From contig NC_133033.1 of assembly GCF_048771995.1 (NCBI RefSeq), positions 4,650,501 through 4,714,500 on the forward strand: DNA of 64,000 bases, given 5' to 3'. Positions 8,771 through 49,100 of the stretch are shown in pieces. Source of the DNA: Taeniopygia guttata (Eukaryota; Chordata; Aves; Passeriformes; Estrildidae). The notes beneath the pieces are model-generated. The model saw only the letters and a program-made list of their open reading frames with translations. It was not told the DNA's origin and searched no databases. Both the position numbers and the translations under genes were made by a program. How positions within the stretch are numbered: position 1 is the stretch's first letter; each line of letters opens with the position of its first letter.

Positions 8771-9044
8771 CATACACTTAAAGAACGTAATCCCAGTAAC
8801 TCCACGATGTGCTCCCGGGAGCCAAAGCATCCCCAAGCACTTCCACTCCACTCCCACCCATCCCTGCGGGGGCAAGAGCTGTGGGCAGGGGCCGGGAGCC
8901 CGCGGGGCCAAGGAACCGACCCCATCCCTCAGCCGAGGGCAGTCCGTGGGACACCGCCTGGTCCCGGCGCCGGCCCCCGTCCACATCCCCATCTCCGGTC
9001 CTAACCCTGGTCCCAGATCCCCGGTCCCGATCCCGGTCCACGTG

Positions 9045-9310
9045 GTCGTCCCGGTCCCATCTCCGTTCCCGTTCCCATCCCCAATCCAATCTCCGCTCCC
9101 ATTCCCATCCCAAATCTCCATCTCCGTTCCCATCCCCAGTCCCCATCTCCGCTCCCGTTCCCATCCCCAGTCCCCATCTCCGTTCCCATTCCCATCCCAA
9201 ATCTCCATCTCCATCTCCGTTCCCGCTCCCATCCCCAGTCCCATCTCCGCTCCCATTCCCATCCCCAGTCCCCATCTCCGTTCCCGTTCCCATCCCGGTC
9301 TCGGACCCGT
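9045..9310. repeat. C-rich minisatellite with CCCATC/CCCATT/CCGTTC-type hexamers
   Basis: Imperfect hexamers such as cccatc, tccgtt, cccgtt and cccagt are reiterated for about 260 bases, with a higher-order period near 30 bases. The complementary strand is a series of GGG runs 3-4 bases apart. Open frames on both strands across it are low-complexity and not credible proteins. Confidence 0.85.
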
Positions 9311-9472
9311 CCCCAGTCCCGGACCGGGTCCCGTCTCCCCTCACGACGCCGCCCGCCCTCACGCGCCCCCTCAGCCACGCCCCCTTCCCACGCCGGTCCA
9401 TTCATCCCCCGGTCTCCCCCGTTACGTGACGCGGGCCCGGCGGGCGCTCCCCGGCCGCGGCTTCGCTGCTTC

Positions 9473-9640
9473 CGGGCCGGGCCGGGGCCGGGCCGGGGCC
9501 GGGCCGGGGGCGGGCCCGGGGCGGGCCCGGGGCGGGTGCGGGGCGGGTGCGGGGGGCGGGCCCGGGGCGGGCCCGGGGCGGCTGCGGGGGACGGGCCCGG
9601 GGTGGGCCCGGGGCGGGGCGGGGCGGCCGCCGCGGCGGCG
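9473..9640. repeat. GGGCC/GGGCGGG tandem repeat of the core promoter
   Basis: The first part repeats ggggccgggcc. The second repeats an approximately 11-base unit (cccggggcggg) with variants such as tgcggggcggg. It contains many GC boxes and many runs of three to five G, so both Sp1-family binding and G-quadruplex formation are possible (inference). Confidence 0.8.
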
Positions 9641-31100: not shown

Positions 31101-34100
31101 CAAGCAGAAGTCTGAGATAACCTACTTCTGGCATATCTGTAGAAAGATACCTGGCAGCACAGGCCAGCTTTTCTATGTCAGACTGAGAATAAGATTCTGC
31201 TGCATCAGAGACTGACTGTTTCTGGTTAGGAATTTGCCTTTAAACGGCTTATTTAAAAAAAAAAAAAAAAAAAAACAACACCCTGCAAAAAACAAACAAT
31301 CCAAAAAATCCCAAACACCTCTGTACTCAAAGTATTTCAGGATTCACACTTAAGCTTCATCATGAGCCTTTTTGAATAGATTTCACTCTGTGTGTGTGAT
31401 ACAGGTAGGAATATTTTGTTAAAATCTTACATTTTGCAATTTTTAGGTAACAAAATTAATAGAAGACAGCACTGTGTCCAAGTCAGTGAAGAATGCAATA
31501 GACACAGACCGACTGCTGAATTGGCTCGTGGAGAATTCAGTCCTGTCAATTGCTCTGGAAGGTAACAGCTCTCCCAAAGCCTTTTAGCACGTTTTAAATG
31601 ACTTAAATTGAAAAATCTCATCTCTCCCTTTCAATAGACTTTAATGAGAACTATTAACCAAAGAGTTCAAGGTTTCTATTGTCTCCAAAATAAAGTAAAA
31701 TCCTGCAAATTCTGTAACTGTCATCTAGTCTACTGTTCGACATCTGTGCAGATGTCTTCTGCAGTACTTGGGGTTTTTTACTCACAGTTTGTATATTGTT
31801 AGCCTTCAAAAAAGAGAGAAAAGAGATGTTTTTCTCCTAAAGTAGTAACTTTTAGTAGGTGTGCTATCAGATGTATGAAGCAAAAAAAAAAAACCAGAAA
31901 CGGCGTTGTTCCTTTTCTTTGTACTGATACTCGTCTGTAACAGTAAAGAAAGATCTTCCAAATGAAGATAGCTTTGTTCTCTTTTAAAATAATTAGTTCC
32001 TTTATATAAATGTAATGTATCTAATACTGTTTGAAATGTATTCATTGAGTTGCCTTTCTTTGTTTCACAGGTAATATAGACCAAGCACAGTACTGTGATC
32101 GTATAAAGGGAATTATTGAACTGCTGGGCAGCAAATTATCTTTAGATGAGCTCACTAAAATTTGGAGAATTCAGGTAAGCAATCAACACTAGGCAAGTGC
32201 TTTTAGACTGTCTTACAAACAAACATTCAAATGAAGGGATTTTAAAAAAATAATCTATACATCTCTATTGCAATGTGGAGGTGTTGAGATTTTAACAGTA
32301 TAATTAATTCAAAGACTTCCTTCTACTTCCTTTATCATGTAAAATCAATTGTTCTGGCAATTTCTTGTATCACAGCTGTAAATCCTGTGATGAAGTTCAG
32401 TTCTTTGCAACAAGTATTAAGGGACTGCACAACTATTTGACTTGGCATAAGAGGTTGTCAGCCTGAAACAGGTGACAGGAATATTTGTCTAGACCAAACT
32501 AGGATATTAATCTTTGTGGCTGGAGGTATGGATTTAAAGTCAGAGTGTGACTTTAAAGAGAGTGGGCTCCATCTGTATGGGTTCCAGTTTACCTTCCTGT
32601 ACAGACATATAATTGACTGACAAGTCACCTTTTGGCCTTCACTTTAAGGATATTCAACTTATTACTGTGTGGGGAAGGTGGTTTGAGTGTTCATGTAAGT
32701 GACACATGGAAACTTTGACAAGAAACTAATCTACCACTGCAGGAAATGGTTTTCTTCTCTGTGCAAGTGTTGATATTTTAGACTAAACTCCTTGAACACT
32801 CTCAGCTCTGCAGTTTGTGTGGCATGGTAGCAAGTCTTTAATGCTTAGCAAAGTTGAAATGTGATTCTAGCTCCCTCACTTTTATTCTTTAATAAAAAGC
32901 ACTTCCTCCCCCTCTCTGGCTGTTGTTACCATGGTGCTCCCATCCGTGTGGGAGGAGATTTTGTATTGCTCATTTTTGAGTAAAGCCTGGAAGAGTTTCA
33001 AAGATCCAGCACCTCACACGTGAACCTCACCAAGCAATAGAAAAGGTGATGTTTGTACTGCTGCCACCACAGCAGCTTGAAGCTGCTGTAATAATGGCAG
33101 ACTTGTGGTTTTGTGGTTTAGAATTAATTCGAAAGACTTCCCAGCCAGGGAAATGAGGAGCACAGACAGTTTACTCTGAACTCGTGTTTCTACCATGTCA
33201 AAAGCTGCTATTCTCACTCAGTGTGAATAGTAGAATAATGCTTATATGAATGTTTTTCTCTAGCTTGTGTAGGTTGAAGACTTAGCTTCTTGTGTTTTCC
33301 TCCTTTTCAGTCAGGACAGTCCTCCACTGTGATTGAGAACATACACACCATTATTGCTGCAGCTGCTGTGAAGTTTAGCTCTGATCAGCTCAATCATTTA
33401 TTTGTTCTAATCCAAAAGGTAAGTTTTCACATGATTTTACATTCCTTAGGAAGAGAATTTATGAGATGTACTTGTGCATCCAGCCTACTGAAAAGCAGAT
33501 ACCTTGAATTTGTATTTTCTATATAAATGTAAAATTTGCTATTAAACACTTTTACTACTAACTTTTATGTTAACCCAGAAACCTAATCTGCTACTATATT
33601 GCTAATTGGCTTGGATTTTAAGTACATTGGATAGCCAGTCCTAAGGGACTTAAAGTAAAATTTTATTATTATCTTTAATCCCTATTGGTATTTGAAAAAG
33701 AGTCGAGCAAATTAGTGCTGTAACTCCCAGCAACAGAAATAAGGAAATACTTATAGTGGAAACATACTTGTTTGTATTTTGAATTTCCTGCAGTAAAGTA
33801 ATTGTGGATTATATTTTTGTGTACACTTGAGGTGTAACAGCCTGACAGAGGTGCTCTAACATTGATTTCTTTGCTCTCCAGAGCTGGGAGACAGAGAGTG
33901 ACCGAGTGAGGCAGAAGCTGCTGAGCCTCATTGGGCGCATTGGCCGAGAAGCACGAGTGGAAACAACCACTGGCAAGGCAAGTGGATGCTTTTCCTTTGG
34001 ATATTTCATTTACTAAACGTAGAGTTGCTAGCCTCTGTACTTCCTAAGTCTTGACTAGCCTTGCTTTTCTTCCTCCAGGTTCTGGAAGTACTTTGGGAGC

Positions 34101-37100
34101 TGGCTCATCTTCCAACGTTACCGTGCAGTCTTATCCAGCAGGCCTTGGAGGAGCACCTGACAATCCTCAGTGATGCTTATGCAGTGAAAGAGGCAATCAA
34201 AAGGAGCTACATCATCAAATGCATAGAGGATATTAAGAGGGTTGGTTTATTATTTTATCTTTTCCAAAATTAAATCTTATCTAGCCTCGATGTTGCCCTT
34301 TTCTTTCAAGATGCACAAATTGTGTGTCCCATCTGTAAGTTCTTACCTTGGGGAGTCCTCGAGAGGGGTAGGCTTTGTGTGAGCCACTTTGTTGATCATG
34401 AGACTCATAGTAAGTCTCTTGCCTTTGTTTTAAGCAAATTTTCAGCACAAGGAGTGATCAGTTTATGGGAAACTACCAGGATGGGCCCAAGGTTAGAATT
34501 TGCAAATGGAACCACTGTAAAGGTATGTCAGTATTTTAACTGTCCCTTTCATGTGAAAGCCTAGATTAGTTTATTTTGAGTAAAGCATGTTCTGGCATGA
34601 CCGTCAAGTCTCAAAATGCAAATCAATATTTCAATTGTAGAAGTTTTGTGTTTTAAAATACTTGACTCTCTTCCTGTAACATAAAGAAGCCATTCCAAAA
34701 GCTGCCTGTACTGTTTCCTGGTAGCAGCAGAGATGTGCATGGCTTAAAAGACTGCTTATATTCTCTCCTGCACTGTTCACATAGCAGGCAGTTTTTCTTC
34801 AGGCCTGCAGGAATGCTCCTGTCTTTTTTTCAGCCTGTAGTATGCTGTAAATAAAGAAAAAGGCTTGTACTTTTTTTGTTGATTTCTTTAATGCTAAGTT
34901 AGGATTTGTCTGTGTTGCATCTGTAGAGGATTTTAGATGTTTAGGAGGTATGTTGATCCTTGATACTGATCACACTTCTCTGTGTGTGTTCCTGAATATG
35001 AATTTGGAATCTTGGGTTCTCAATGTCTGTAAAAGTTGTAGGTTTTTTTTATTTTGGATCTTCTCTTATGCTTTCTTAATCTCATTCCTTTTAATTATAT
35101 TCTGGCAAGGGCTTTTACATAGGTGCTGCAGTGGGAAACACTAACAAAAGCTGTAATTGTAAACTAGAAGGGATTGGGGTAAGCATACAGCAGACTTGTA
35201 AAATACATAGTTCTTACTTTCCTTCATTAGGGAAATGAAGACATAAACTGGGAGGGAATGTAATGCCAAGGCAGCTTTCTCATATTTGTGAGGAAGTCTT
35301 CAGTGGAGAGGTCTCTGTTATGGTTGGGTTCCTTCAACCTCTCTGAGTGTGTAGGTGGTTTTGGGTGTTGTCAGTATTTAAACCAGACATCACTTCTCTA
35401 AACAAGCAACCTCAGTACTGGTCTGTGTGGTCAAACTTTACAGAAAATGAAGCCTCCCAGAAAAATGATGAGCAGTTCTAAAAATGAGGTAGGAGGGTTG
35501 TTCTTTGTAGGATCTCTTTCAAAACGCAGCTTAAGTATCCTTTGCTTCCTATCAGGGAGCTGCTTGCAGCACCAATCGGAAATTTCTTGTCTCTTAAGCC
35601 TCAGTAGTGTTTGAAATTCCTCCTTCTTTTGCTCTTGCTTTAGCAGCAAATAATATCATTTGACTGGATTTGCCCTTTTATGCCCTTTTAGACCTGTTTC
35701 CCATCCCGTAATTGAGGAAGGTGGTGGTTATCTCTCTCTGGTGCAATTGAGCTCTTTTTGGCTACTTAATTTGCATGTTCTCTAGCAAGGAGCTGCCACT
35801 TTGGGCTTAATAATAGGGATAGCAAAATGATATATGTGTGTATCAAGGGACTTGTTGTAGAAAGTGAAGAAGAGCAGTTTGAGTGTGTTTGAAAAGAGAG
35901 CAGGAACAAATACCTGAAGCCAGCAGAGGTGGTAGCTGTTCTTTTGAAACAGCAGCCTTAACAGATATCATTAGGTTTCCAGAAGTCTGAGAGGAAGGTT
36001 AATCTGTTGTTGACCAGATGTGTAATTGTTTTTACCTTTCCTGCTACCAGTCGTCCCAGCACAATAATCCTCAGTTTGTGTGGGTGGTGCCAGCCTTGCG
36101 TCAGCTCCATGAAATCACACGTTCATTTATTAAGCAAACTTACCAAAAACAAGACAAGGTAAGGCTATATGCTGACAAGTTTGTTGAAACTTTTGTTGTG
36201 TCTGTGTAGCTCAGCCAAACAAGGAAGTTTGAATTTAGGAAAAAAAATATTAGCTAATAAACAATTTTAAAAGTAGTTTGGTGATGTAGCATAAACAAGC
36301 TATTGGAGTAGAGGTGCTGTGCTGTCCCTTTGTGTGTGTGTGTATGTATAAATCTGTTTGCTGTGTCAGGACTAATTTGTTTTATTCTCAGCTTTTTGTA
36401 GAATAATTAACAGGCATGTTTGTGTTAAGAAATTAACAATGGCTAATGTTTAGACCAACTGCTTTGTAATTGAATTGACATTGACTCTTGGAAAAACAAA
36501 CTAAAGTAGCAGCAATCATGTGTGCCATAGAGTGGCTGTGTGGAGGTGTGGGACTTTTCAATCTGCAGCATTTGTGTTTCAGCACCTGCTGAAAACACCA
36601 GCATCATGGGGGTTGGGTGCTTGGAAGGGAACAGCTGACTTTGAGTGGGGGTACATGACTCCTTCTGGTAAGAGATGTGTGTCCATAGGAGAGCAAAATG
36701 CTGTACGCACACCCCTGTTTAACTATTGTTTTAAAAACTTCTTTTCTCTCTTTTATTTTATTGCCAAGAGCATTATTCAAGATTTAAAGAAAAACTTTGA
36801 AATAGTGAAGTTGGTGACAGGAAGCTTGATATCCTGTCACCGTTTGGCTGCATCTGTGGCAGGCCCAGGAGGGCTGGTGGGAGCAACACTGGTGGATGGC
36901 CGATACACTTACCGGGAGGTACCAGATTTCTTTATCTTCTTGTTTCACTTTTGAAATTCACTGGTGAATAATAATTTATAGTTCTACTACTTATGTACGA
37001 AGGCTTGTTTTACCCTTGTTATTATATAGAAGAAAGCTGTGTAAATATTACACGAAATTACACAAGATCCTTAGCAATATCTTTACCTGGTGAAGAGTAG

Positions 37101-46100: not shown

Positions 46101-49100
46101 TATCCATGGCACTCCTCTACCCAAGAGATCTTGAAGCATTTTCCAGCAGGAGCAGAAAGCTTCCACCTGTAGATATAAAAGGAGAAAATGAGGATGTTGG
46201 CCTCCAACGAAGCCAGTTTGAACTGGGCCTCAGCTGAGTGGATAGAAGGAAGGAAAGATAGACACAAATTAATTGAAACATTTCCAAATGGAGTCTGTCT
46301 TATTGATTTGTTTTTAAGTTTGGTGGTGAATGTGATGCAGAGAGATTCCATCCCATCAGAGGTGGACTATGAAACAAGACAAGGAGTCTATTCCATCTGC
46401 CTGCAGCTTGCAAGGTATGTAATTGCTGCTCATTAGAGAAAGTGCTGCTTTCTTGGCTTTTAGCATGCAGCTTTTAATATTTAAGATTAATTGATACTTT
46501 GGGTTTTGTTTCATTCACTCTGCAGCGTACAAAGAGAAGCCTGATGTTTTTACTCAGTGAATGCAGGTTCTTGCTGGTTGGGCAGACAGTGCCCATGATG
46601 TTTTTACTCTGTGAATGCAGGTTCTTGCTGGTTGGGCAGACAGTGCCCATGATGTTTTTACTCTGGGAATGCAGTTTCTTGCTGGCTGGGCAGACAGTGC
46701 CCATGATGTTTTTACTCTGGGAATGCAGGTTCTTGCTGGTTGGGCAGACAGTGCCCATGATGTTTTTACTCTGGGAATGCAGGTTCTTGCTGGTTGGGCA
46801 GACAATGCCCACTCTGCTGGATGAGGATTTCATCAAGGATGGGGTGGAAGCTCTGTCCTCACGGCCCTTCCGCAACGTGAGCCGGCAGGCGAGCAGGCAG
46901 ATGTCCATCTGTGGGACTCCTGAGAAGTCCTCCTACCGCCAGCTCTCCGTGTCTGACAGATCCTCCATCAGAGTAGAAGAAATCATCCCAGCTGCAAGAG
47001 TTGCCATACAAGTAAGGAAGTGTTGGATGGTTCTGATGTAGCAGTGTCATCTCCAATGACACCTGTAGAACTCTGAGATTTTTAATCAGTCTTTTATACA
47101 GTATTTTGCCCTGGCTCCATTTAAAAGCCTCTGAAAATCTTGACCATCAATGTGTCTTCTGGTCTTGATCTGAATTTTAATATATTCTCATAAATTATTT
47201 TGGCACTATAAAGGGAAGCAGTACCCCAAAAGTGCTTACAAGAAATAGATGTACACAGAAGTTTTACTTGTGATTTCTCTTCAGTCACACTTTACTCTTA
47301 AGATCTTACTGTTGTTAATTTTCTGTGAATTGAAAGGAGAAGGTTCCTGCTTGAACTTGTGGCTTTATAATCCATGATACTTTGAATTAGAAAGAATTGG
47401 ACAAGCTTTTTCCAAATAGCTCATTAAAAAATAAATGTGCTTGATGGTATTGTGGAGAAAAAGGAAATTTTTTATTTTCAGTACCTTAAAAAAATGTTGT
47501 TTGAAAACCCATTGAGTCCAGTTGAAAGAAACTTCATACTTAACGTGACTAGTATGCTGTGTTAGGTTGATGGGCAGTGCTTCCCAAATGGATTGAACTA
47601 TTGAAATCAGCATGCCTGCCTCCAGATAGGTGGCAAGGGTATCTATCCTCGTGGGGAATTAAAAAGTTAATTACTTCTCCTAAGAATCCTTGAGCCTGTG
47701 TAGAGAAGAGAGAAGAAAACAAGTGTAAATGTCAATTTGACACGATCCAGAAAGTACATTCCTGTCATCCCTGTGATTAACAAGGATTGTTGAATATCAC
47801 AAAAGTGACTGCTGTTTCTTGTTCCTGCAGACCATGGAGGTGAACGATTTCACCTCCACAGTGGCTTGTTTCATGCGCCTCTCGTGGGCTGCTGCTGCAG
47901 GACGCCTGGACCTCGTGGGAAGTAGTCAGCCCATCAAAGAGAGCAACACTCTCTTCCCTGCTGGGATTAGAAACAGACTTAGCAGCTCAGGTGGGTTAAC
48001 TGTGTCCCTAAACCAATCTAAAAGCATTTGGTTTAATCTTAATTGAACGCTTTAGGAGTTTGAAGCTGAATTCATTGGATGTTCATCCTCTTGGTTCTCC
48101 CCCAGCTTGGGACATTATACAATTAAATTACAAAAAATCTGAGCAAATTTATGTATATTCATCAGGCATTCAGAGAAGTTTTTAAATTGCAGAGAACTGA
48201 CCAAAAGCTGAAAACATCTGAGTAAAATTTAATGAATTACAGCACTTGTTCTGTTTGTTTTTTTAATGCAGGAAGTAACTGCAGTTCAGGAAGCGAAGGG
48301 GAGCCCACGGCGCTGCACGCTGGGATCTGTGTGAGGCAGCAGTCTGTGTCCACCAAAGATGCTCTCATTGCTGGGGAAGCCTTGTCTCTCTTAGTAACCT
48401 GCCTTCAGCTACGTAGTCAGCAGCTAGGTATGGAAAAAAATTGGATTATTCACTATTTGGAGTATAAGCCAGGTGGGAGGAAGCTTTCGGATACAGTCAA
48501 GTGAAAAAAAAAGAAAAAAAAAAAAAGAGAAACTTGTAGCTTTGTTAGCTGAGACAGCTCAAGCTAAACACAACATTTCATTAAAAATTACAGGCATTTT
48601 TTTTTCCAGGACTGAAATAAGGCATGTAGTGCTATGCTTTGGTGAAATGTTTTGGGGAAACTGACTTACTGCCAGAATATAAATATTTGCACTGCCTTTG
48701 AAGTCTGTAATTCTGTAAGTGCTGCTGTTTGCATAGCTCCTGTTTAGTACTTGAGTCTTTGTGTATAGGAAGTGTAAACACTGGTGGTGCAGGAAGGCAA
48801 GGAAAATGCTGTTATATCATGGTGGCAGCCTCTAGTGAGGGAAGGAAATCAGGAAATACCCTTTGCTGCTTTTCTGTATTGATGTCCTCTAGGTCCTGTG
48901 GTATTTTAATGCAAGACTGTAACTGACTTATTTTAAAATACTATTTTTCATAAGATAGCCTGTTACTCTTCTGTTTCAGGATCTTTTTACAATTTGCCTT
49001 GTGTTGCTGATTTCATCATTGATATTCTGCTTGGATCACCAAGTGCTGAGGTGAGGGTCTTCCTCTGGAAACTTCCTAAATACTCCTTCTGAAATGTATA

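Follow-up and report, generated by a model that had tools for sequence, protein, structure and literature searches.

Which 3' splice site does a gene use when a tandem repeat has multiplied the native one in frame? The question is raised by the window, the stretch of 64,000 nucleotides of Taeniopygia guttata DNA analyzed here, in which a 54-bp minisatellite lies across an intron-exon border of USP24. The answer we favor, at about even confidence, is a fairly recent in-frame minisatellite whose acceptors would be used as a mixture and which would have little adaptive role. A tentative alternative is an inert array, in which splicing would use acceptor 46782 alone, the last one, beside the full exon 33 and its enhancers; the four upstream copies would remain intron and their open frame would be luck.

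The array lies at the border of intron 32 and exon 33 of USP24

The host gene was identified by tblastn and splice alignment, using a human USP24 protein as probe. With this probe the USP24 exons span 9821 to about 53009, and 32 of the 41 tblastn hits listed in 9821-53009 have at least 75% identity; the other nine have 35-73%, mostly because the alignment runs on into intron. Splice alignment gave 43 introns, 41 of which were kept; the acceptors 34088 and 36017 were badly fitted and were left out. The array lies across the junction of the 32nd intron, at its 3' end, with the 33rd coding exon. As placed with the human probe, coding exon 32 (46319-46414, plus strand) ends in CLQLA-AG, in phase 2, and is followed by the donor GTATGT starting at 46415 (plus strand). 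The conserved form of coding exon 33 occupies 229 nt at 46783-47011 on the plus strand, with the next donor, GTAAGG, at 47012. Identity to the probe is 91.9% and 93.5% in the two exons flanking the array, and no residues are inserted where they meet.

The first-pass annotation of this DNA had placed the insertion point at residue 1221, and this agrees with the gene model, in which 3689 coding nucleotides less 27 in the two badly fitted introns give 1220 codons plus 2 nt. It had also held that protein conservation supports the last acceptor. The conserved join does fall exactly at 46782, which speaks for the inert array, but the comparison is with the human USP24 probe only.

We searched the zebra finch assembly (1,140,912,852 bases in 41 contigs) for further copies. 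A 351-bp stretch around the array gave one match, as did 46812-47011 searched as DNA and exon 33 searched as protein; this search scores the best candidates only and skips simple repeats. Within that scope, these single matches led us to reject a second copy or retrocopy. A CR1 tail motif, sought as a sign of bird origin, gave 0 matches. No relatives were found in viral contigs, as expected for an animal gene, and exon 33 matched no Pfam family. Two weak matches of exon 33 to PERIOD proteins in the PDB (E 0.5 and 1.1) were taken as chance.

Several other features of the USP24 region were noted on the way. The intron at 33978-34078 appears to be of the GC-AG type, with the exon ending in ACTGGCAAG, the donor GCAAGT and the acceptor TTCTTCCTCCAG/GTTCTGG (the slash marks the exon border); the best GT donor tried in the splice alignment lost residues. 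The segment PGEWSGLEKNKKDGFK of the human probe had no convincing match in the window. In the relevant stretch, 34241-36050, the exons may join KR directly to SSQ, and a small in-frame exon may be missing, diverged or isoform-specific, or the probe may be wrong there. GC-rich repeat arrays are dense at 8986-9626, a short way before the start codon of USP24 (9821), with a CCCATC type at about 9056-9296 and a CCGGGGCGGG type at about 9472-9626.

Each repeat unit carries a candidate acceptor in the frame of USP24

Tandem Repeats Finder reported a single 54-bp array, at 46542-46811 on the plus strand, with 5.0 copies, 96% matches, 0% indels and a score of 498. The repeat itself cannot be chance. 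Each unit consists of 25 nt from the end of intron 32 and 29 nt from the start of exon 33, so that the native splice site of the gene lies inside the unit, as in splice-site-bearing VNTRs of the ABCA7 type. The array had earlier been described as four copies and two half-copies at 46543-46806, a count that differs because it divides the repeat at the splice site. Reading copy by copy on the plus strand returned all five acceptor ends that had been listed, 46566 in copy 1 (46542-46595), 46620 in copy 2 (46596-46649), 46674 in copy 3 (46650-46703; AG/T), 46728 in copy 4 (46704-46757) and 46782 in copy 5 (46758-46811), which continues into exon 33.

Translation of the frames bore out the central claim that the repeat has multiplied a 3' splice site in frame and turned the end of an intron into potential coding sequence. 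All five acceptors join exon 32 in frame and stay open to the end of exon 33, so that the choice of acceptor would add zero to four blocks of 18 residues. At least two AGs in frame with the same exon, with no stop, are present here: 46566, 46620, 46674, 46728 and 46782, and also 46557. The last of these is one of four further upstream AGs (46485, 46536, 46539 and 46557) that are in frame and open and that the first-pass annotation lacked. Over 46567-46782 the other two frames hold one stop and four stops, respectively.

How surprising is a frame-neutral unit? A random 54-mer of the window is open in a given frame with a probability of 0.37 (20,000 samples); with a factor of 1/3 for divisibility by three, an open unit that preserves the frame has a probability of 1/3 x 0.37, about 0.12. 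This is not small, as the inert array would have it; frame-neutrality is accordingly only mildly surprising and argues little for use of the upstream sites.

The copies differ at five unit positions (15, 17, 26, 37 and 48), two in the 25 intron-derived nucleotides and three in the 29 exon-derived ones. All five differences are nonsynonymous, a further point for the inert array, and none makes a stop; copy 5, for example, has ATG (QTMP) where copies 1-4 have GTG (QTVP). The possible single changes in the unit comprise 34 synonymous, 121 nonsynonymous and 7 stop changes, and by chance no synonymous change among five is expected in 31% of cases and no stop in 80%. These five variable sites, a small test, give no hint that purifying selection acts on the block, and since the observed 0/5 is expected 31% of the time, it lends the lack of protein constraint weak support. 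The block is hydrophobic, with a mean Kyte-Doolittle value of 1.0-1.3. A large hydrophobic insertion, if often made, might be removed by selection, a point against mixed use, because the flanking exons are conserved and their border in the conserved protein carries no extra residues.

The five acceptors are weak and close in strength

We scored the acceptors with a position weight matrix trained on 40 other USP24 acceptors, the array's own acceptor being left out of the total of 41. Because the matrix rests on 40 sites and ignores exonic enhancers, it cannot name the site that is used. The leave-one-out median of the 40 real acceptors was 8.9 bits; copies 1-5 scored 0.94, 3.60, 0.24, 2.61 and 2.61 bits, copy 2 being the strongest and copy 3 the weakest in the main model. 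Only 1 of the 40 real acceptors scored below 2.61 bits in that model, and over four model widths between 0 and 5 of the 40 scored lower than the array sites, depending on site and width. The 16 nt before the last four intron bases contain 10, 11, 10, 10 and 10 pyrimidines, compared with 8-16 in the controls (n=40). The T-rich tract earlier ascribed to each copy is present, but it is short (TTTTTACTCT) and gives way to purines (GGGAATG in copies 3-5), and the sites are weak.

Copy 2 was the best of the five in 88-96% of bootstraps over four model widths, and the bootstrap score ranges of the five sites overlap. Hence nothing in the core site singles out the conserved acceptor 46782. This tells against the inert array, in which 46782 would have to be preferred although its score only equals that of copy 4 and is lower than that of copy 2. 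Since all five sites are weak, however, an enhancer in exon 33 could make 46782 the sole site used. The upstream scores also fall within the range of many AGs that are not acceptors, again as the inert array would have it: of 2994 decoys, 575 score at least 2 bits and 425 at least 3 bits. The decoy set is every other AG of 10200-53000, and so also contains those in exons, those of copies 1-4 and the genuine acceptors of the two introns left out.

A further candidate element, newly noted here, is a branch-point-like motif in each unit: a TNAY lies 22 nt before the AG end of every array acceptor. A full yUnAy motif, CTGAT, is found at 46541-46545 on the plus strand in copy 1 only; its A is at 46544, and acceptor 46566 ends 22 nt further on. 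Copies 2-5 have ATGAT instead, because the C lies outside the repeat unit. Among the 40 control acceptors of USP24, 30 have a yUnAy and 35 a TNAY motif 15-50 nt upstream; TNAY being this common, the motifs of the array are typical of acceptors and no proof of function.

It had been proposed that AG scanning from 5' to 3' may favor the upstream sites. That proposal can be kept in a refined form, in which the scan starts at the branch point and the sole full yUnAy belongs to copy 1. The first AG after CTGAT is then 46557, at 13 nt, created by A15 of copy 1, and it precedes 46566, at 22 nt. Earlier work describes that AGs less than about 12-15 nt from the branch point can be bypassed (PMC1431707). 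The other AGs open in frame upstream were scored in the main model as well: 46557 reached 2.14 bits, and 46566 scored below it in all four model widths; 46485 reached 3.88 bits, and 46536 and 46539 lie below -11 bits. Upstream splice sites are transcribed first, which, with the lack of a full CTGAT motif at 46782, tells against the inert array. The duplication has thereby split the original site, whose intron surroundings are kept by copy 1 and whose exon surroundings are kept by copy 5.

An out-of-frame AG upstream of the array

The best acceptor-like site of the intron in the main model lies outside the array. It is the AG at 46524-46525 (plus strand) in TTGTTTCATTCACTCTGCAG/CGT, absent from the earlier description, which scores 6.69 bits; a join there would leave the reading frame and meet a stop after 6 codons. 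This AG raises the possibility that 46525 competes for exon 32 and yields early-stop transcripts; the multiplied in-frame acceptors would then raise the summed chance of a good junction, and copy number would buffer USP24 expression. In keeping with such competition, 46525 came first among nine candidate sites in 71%, 89%, 35% and 55% of the bootstraps made with the four model widths, yUnAy motifs lie 31, 35 and 48 nt upstream of it and the 40 nt before it are free of AG. Its lead over copy 2 is slight in the 30-nt model (3.58 vs 2.77), however, and such decoys are common: 3-5% of the 2994 non-acceptor AGs reach 6-7 bits, and an AG equal to or better than the acceptor lies within 300 nt upstream in 4 of 41 introns, the array's among them, a count in which the training sites were scored by the very model built on them. 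Nothing points to selection on copy number, and we regard buffering against 46525 as unlikely. We also considered an earlier 41-nt insertion between two TGCAG motifs, under which 46525 would be the old acceptor. Each unit further contains an out-of-frame GGGCAG (46585, 46639, 46693, 46747 and 46801), which scores 2.61 bits, or 1.89 in copy 3.

History of the array

No two copies are identical; all ten pairs differ, by 1-4 bases. The variants are ordered along the array: A15 occurs in copy 1 only, T17 in copies 1-2 and G17 in copies 3-5, A48 in copy 5 only, and T26 and C37 are confined to copy 3. Such an ordered pattern is the trace that stepwise duplication would be expected to leave. It makes an assembly or single-individual artefact very improbable, since assembler stutter is hard to reconcile with copies that all differ in an ordered way, and an assembly with 41 contigs for 1.14 Gb suggests long reads. 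The unit's AGGT could in principle have given a new intron, but CAG/GTTCTT, the one AG/GT site scored, reaches 1.9 bits, whereas the 41 real donors range over 3.8-12.7, vertebrate introns need more than 54 nt, and the usable new 5' donor that marks intron gain by tandem duplication of the Rogers, Hellsten or potato type is lacking.

No microhomology was found at the unit edges in the flanks of the array, and a search of four stretches beside it for older decayed copies gave nothing above the level of shuffled sequence (P 0.72, 0.25, 0.65 and 0.06, from 300 shuffles per stretch). The array is probably fairly recent, judging by the high likeness of its copies, the sole basis for this age; gene conversion could also give such likeness.

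Discussion

We propose that 54 bp spanning the junction of intron 32 and exon 33 in USP24 were duplicated in tandem and then expanded to five copies. Each copy would be a self-contained, weak 3' splice site, and a frame-neutral one, since its 54 nt make 18 whole codons with no stop in the frame of the gene. The spliceosome would choose among near-equal weak sites, and the transcripts would most likely be a mixture, some joined at 46782 to give the conserved protein and some at upstream copies, adding 18-75 mostly hydrophobic residues at residue 1221. We infer that the array is of recent age and near-neutral or mildly harmful rather than adaptive. A bolder idea, which we consider highly doubtful, is that a copy-number-variable acceptor array acts as a length dial, giving USP24 with zero to four extra 18-residue blocks by individual or tissue, and that the number of in-frame acceptors also sets the escape from 46525, so that the minisatellite would set both protein length and dosage.

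The closest precedents, by our comparison, are the donor VNTR of ABCA7 and a tandem intron-exon duplication in potato. According to the ABCA7 report, the 25-bp unit of the intron 18 VNTR holds the 5' donor of the gene, a single unit can stay in the mRNA, and repeat length correlates with exon 19 skipping, whereas retention of a single unit shifts the frame and is independent of VNTR length (PMC5954066). At both loci, then, a native splice site of the host gene is part of a tandemly repeated unit. The USP24 unit differs in being 54 bp long, in carrying a 3' acceptor and exon sequence and in keeping the frame; splice use has been shown for ABCA7, whereas use of the USP24 copies is predicted. The ABCA7 findings cut both ways: ABCA7 is a precedent for retaining one unit of a splice-site-bearing VNTR, which counts for mixed use, but the independence of that retention from VNTR length counts against the reading we favor.

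In the potato RdRp gene, the 3' end of an intron and the 5' end of an exon were duplicated in tandem, and this single duplication brought a cryptic GTAAG donor into use, so that a new intron arose (PMC4974935). The duplicated segment described there, like the USP24 unit, has a putative branch site, a pyrimidine tract, a 3' splice site and the start of an exon; USP24 differs in having five copies and a donor-like AG/GT that is very weak (1.9 bits). NAGNAG tandem acceptors share with the array several in-frame acceptors for one exon, and they yield insertion isoforms (PMC3250501). The USP24 sites differ from them in their 54-nt rather than 3-nt spacing, their separate branch-like motifs and tracts and their minisatellite origin, and they are candidate sites. 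A search of titles and abstract openings found no in-frame acceptor-bearing minisatellite in USP24 or elsewhere, which is no proof of absence.

If the upstream acceptors are used, nature would have set up, within a conserved gene, a row of almost identical 3' splice sites spaced evenly by 54 nt, every one of them with a branch-like motif and an AG of its own. It would offer an in-vivo test of whether proximity, scanning or exon context governs the choice among equal acceptors, and it would exemplify the conversion of intron to coding sequence by a minisatellite. If the last site alone is used, this would be informative as well, as it would mean that the sequence of the core site alone does not decide.
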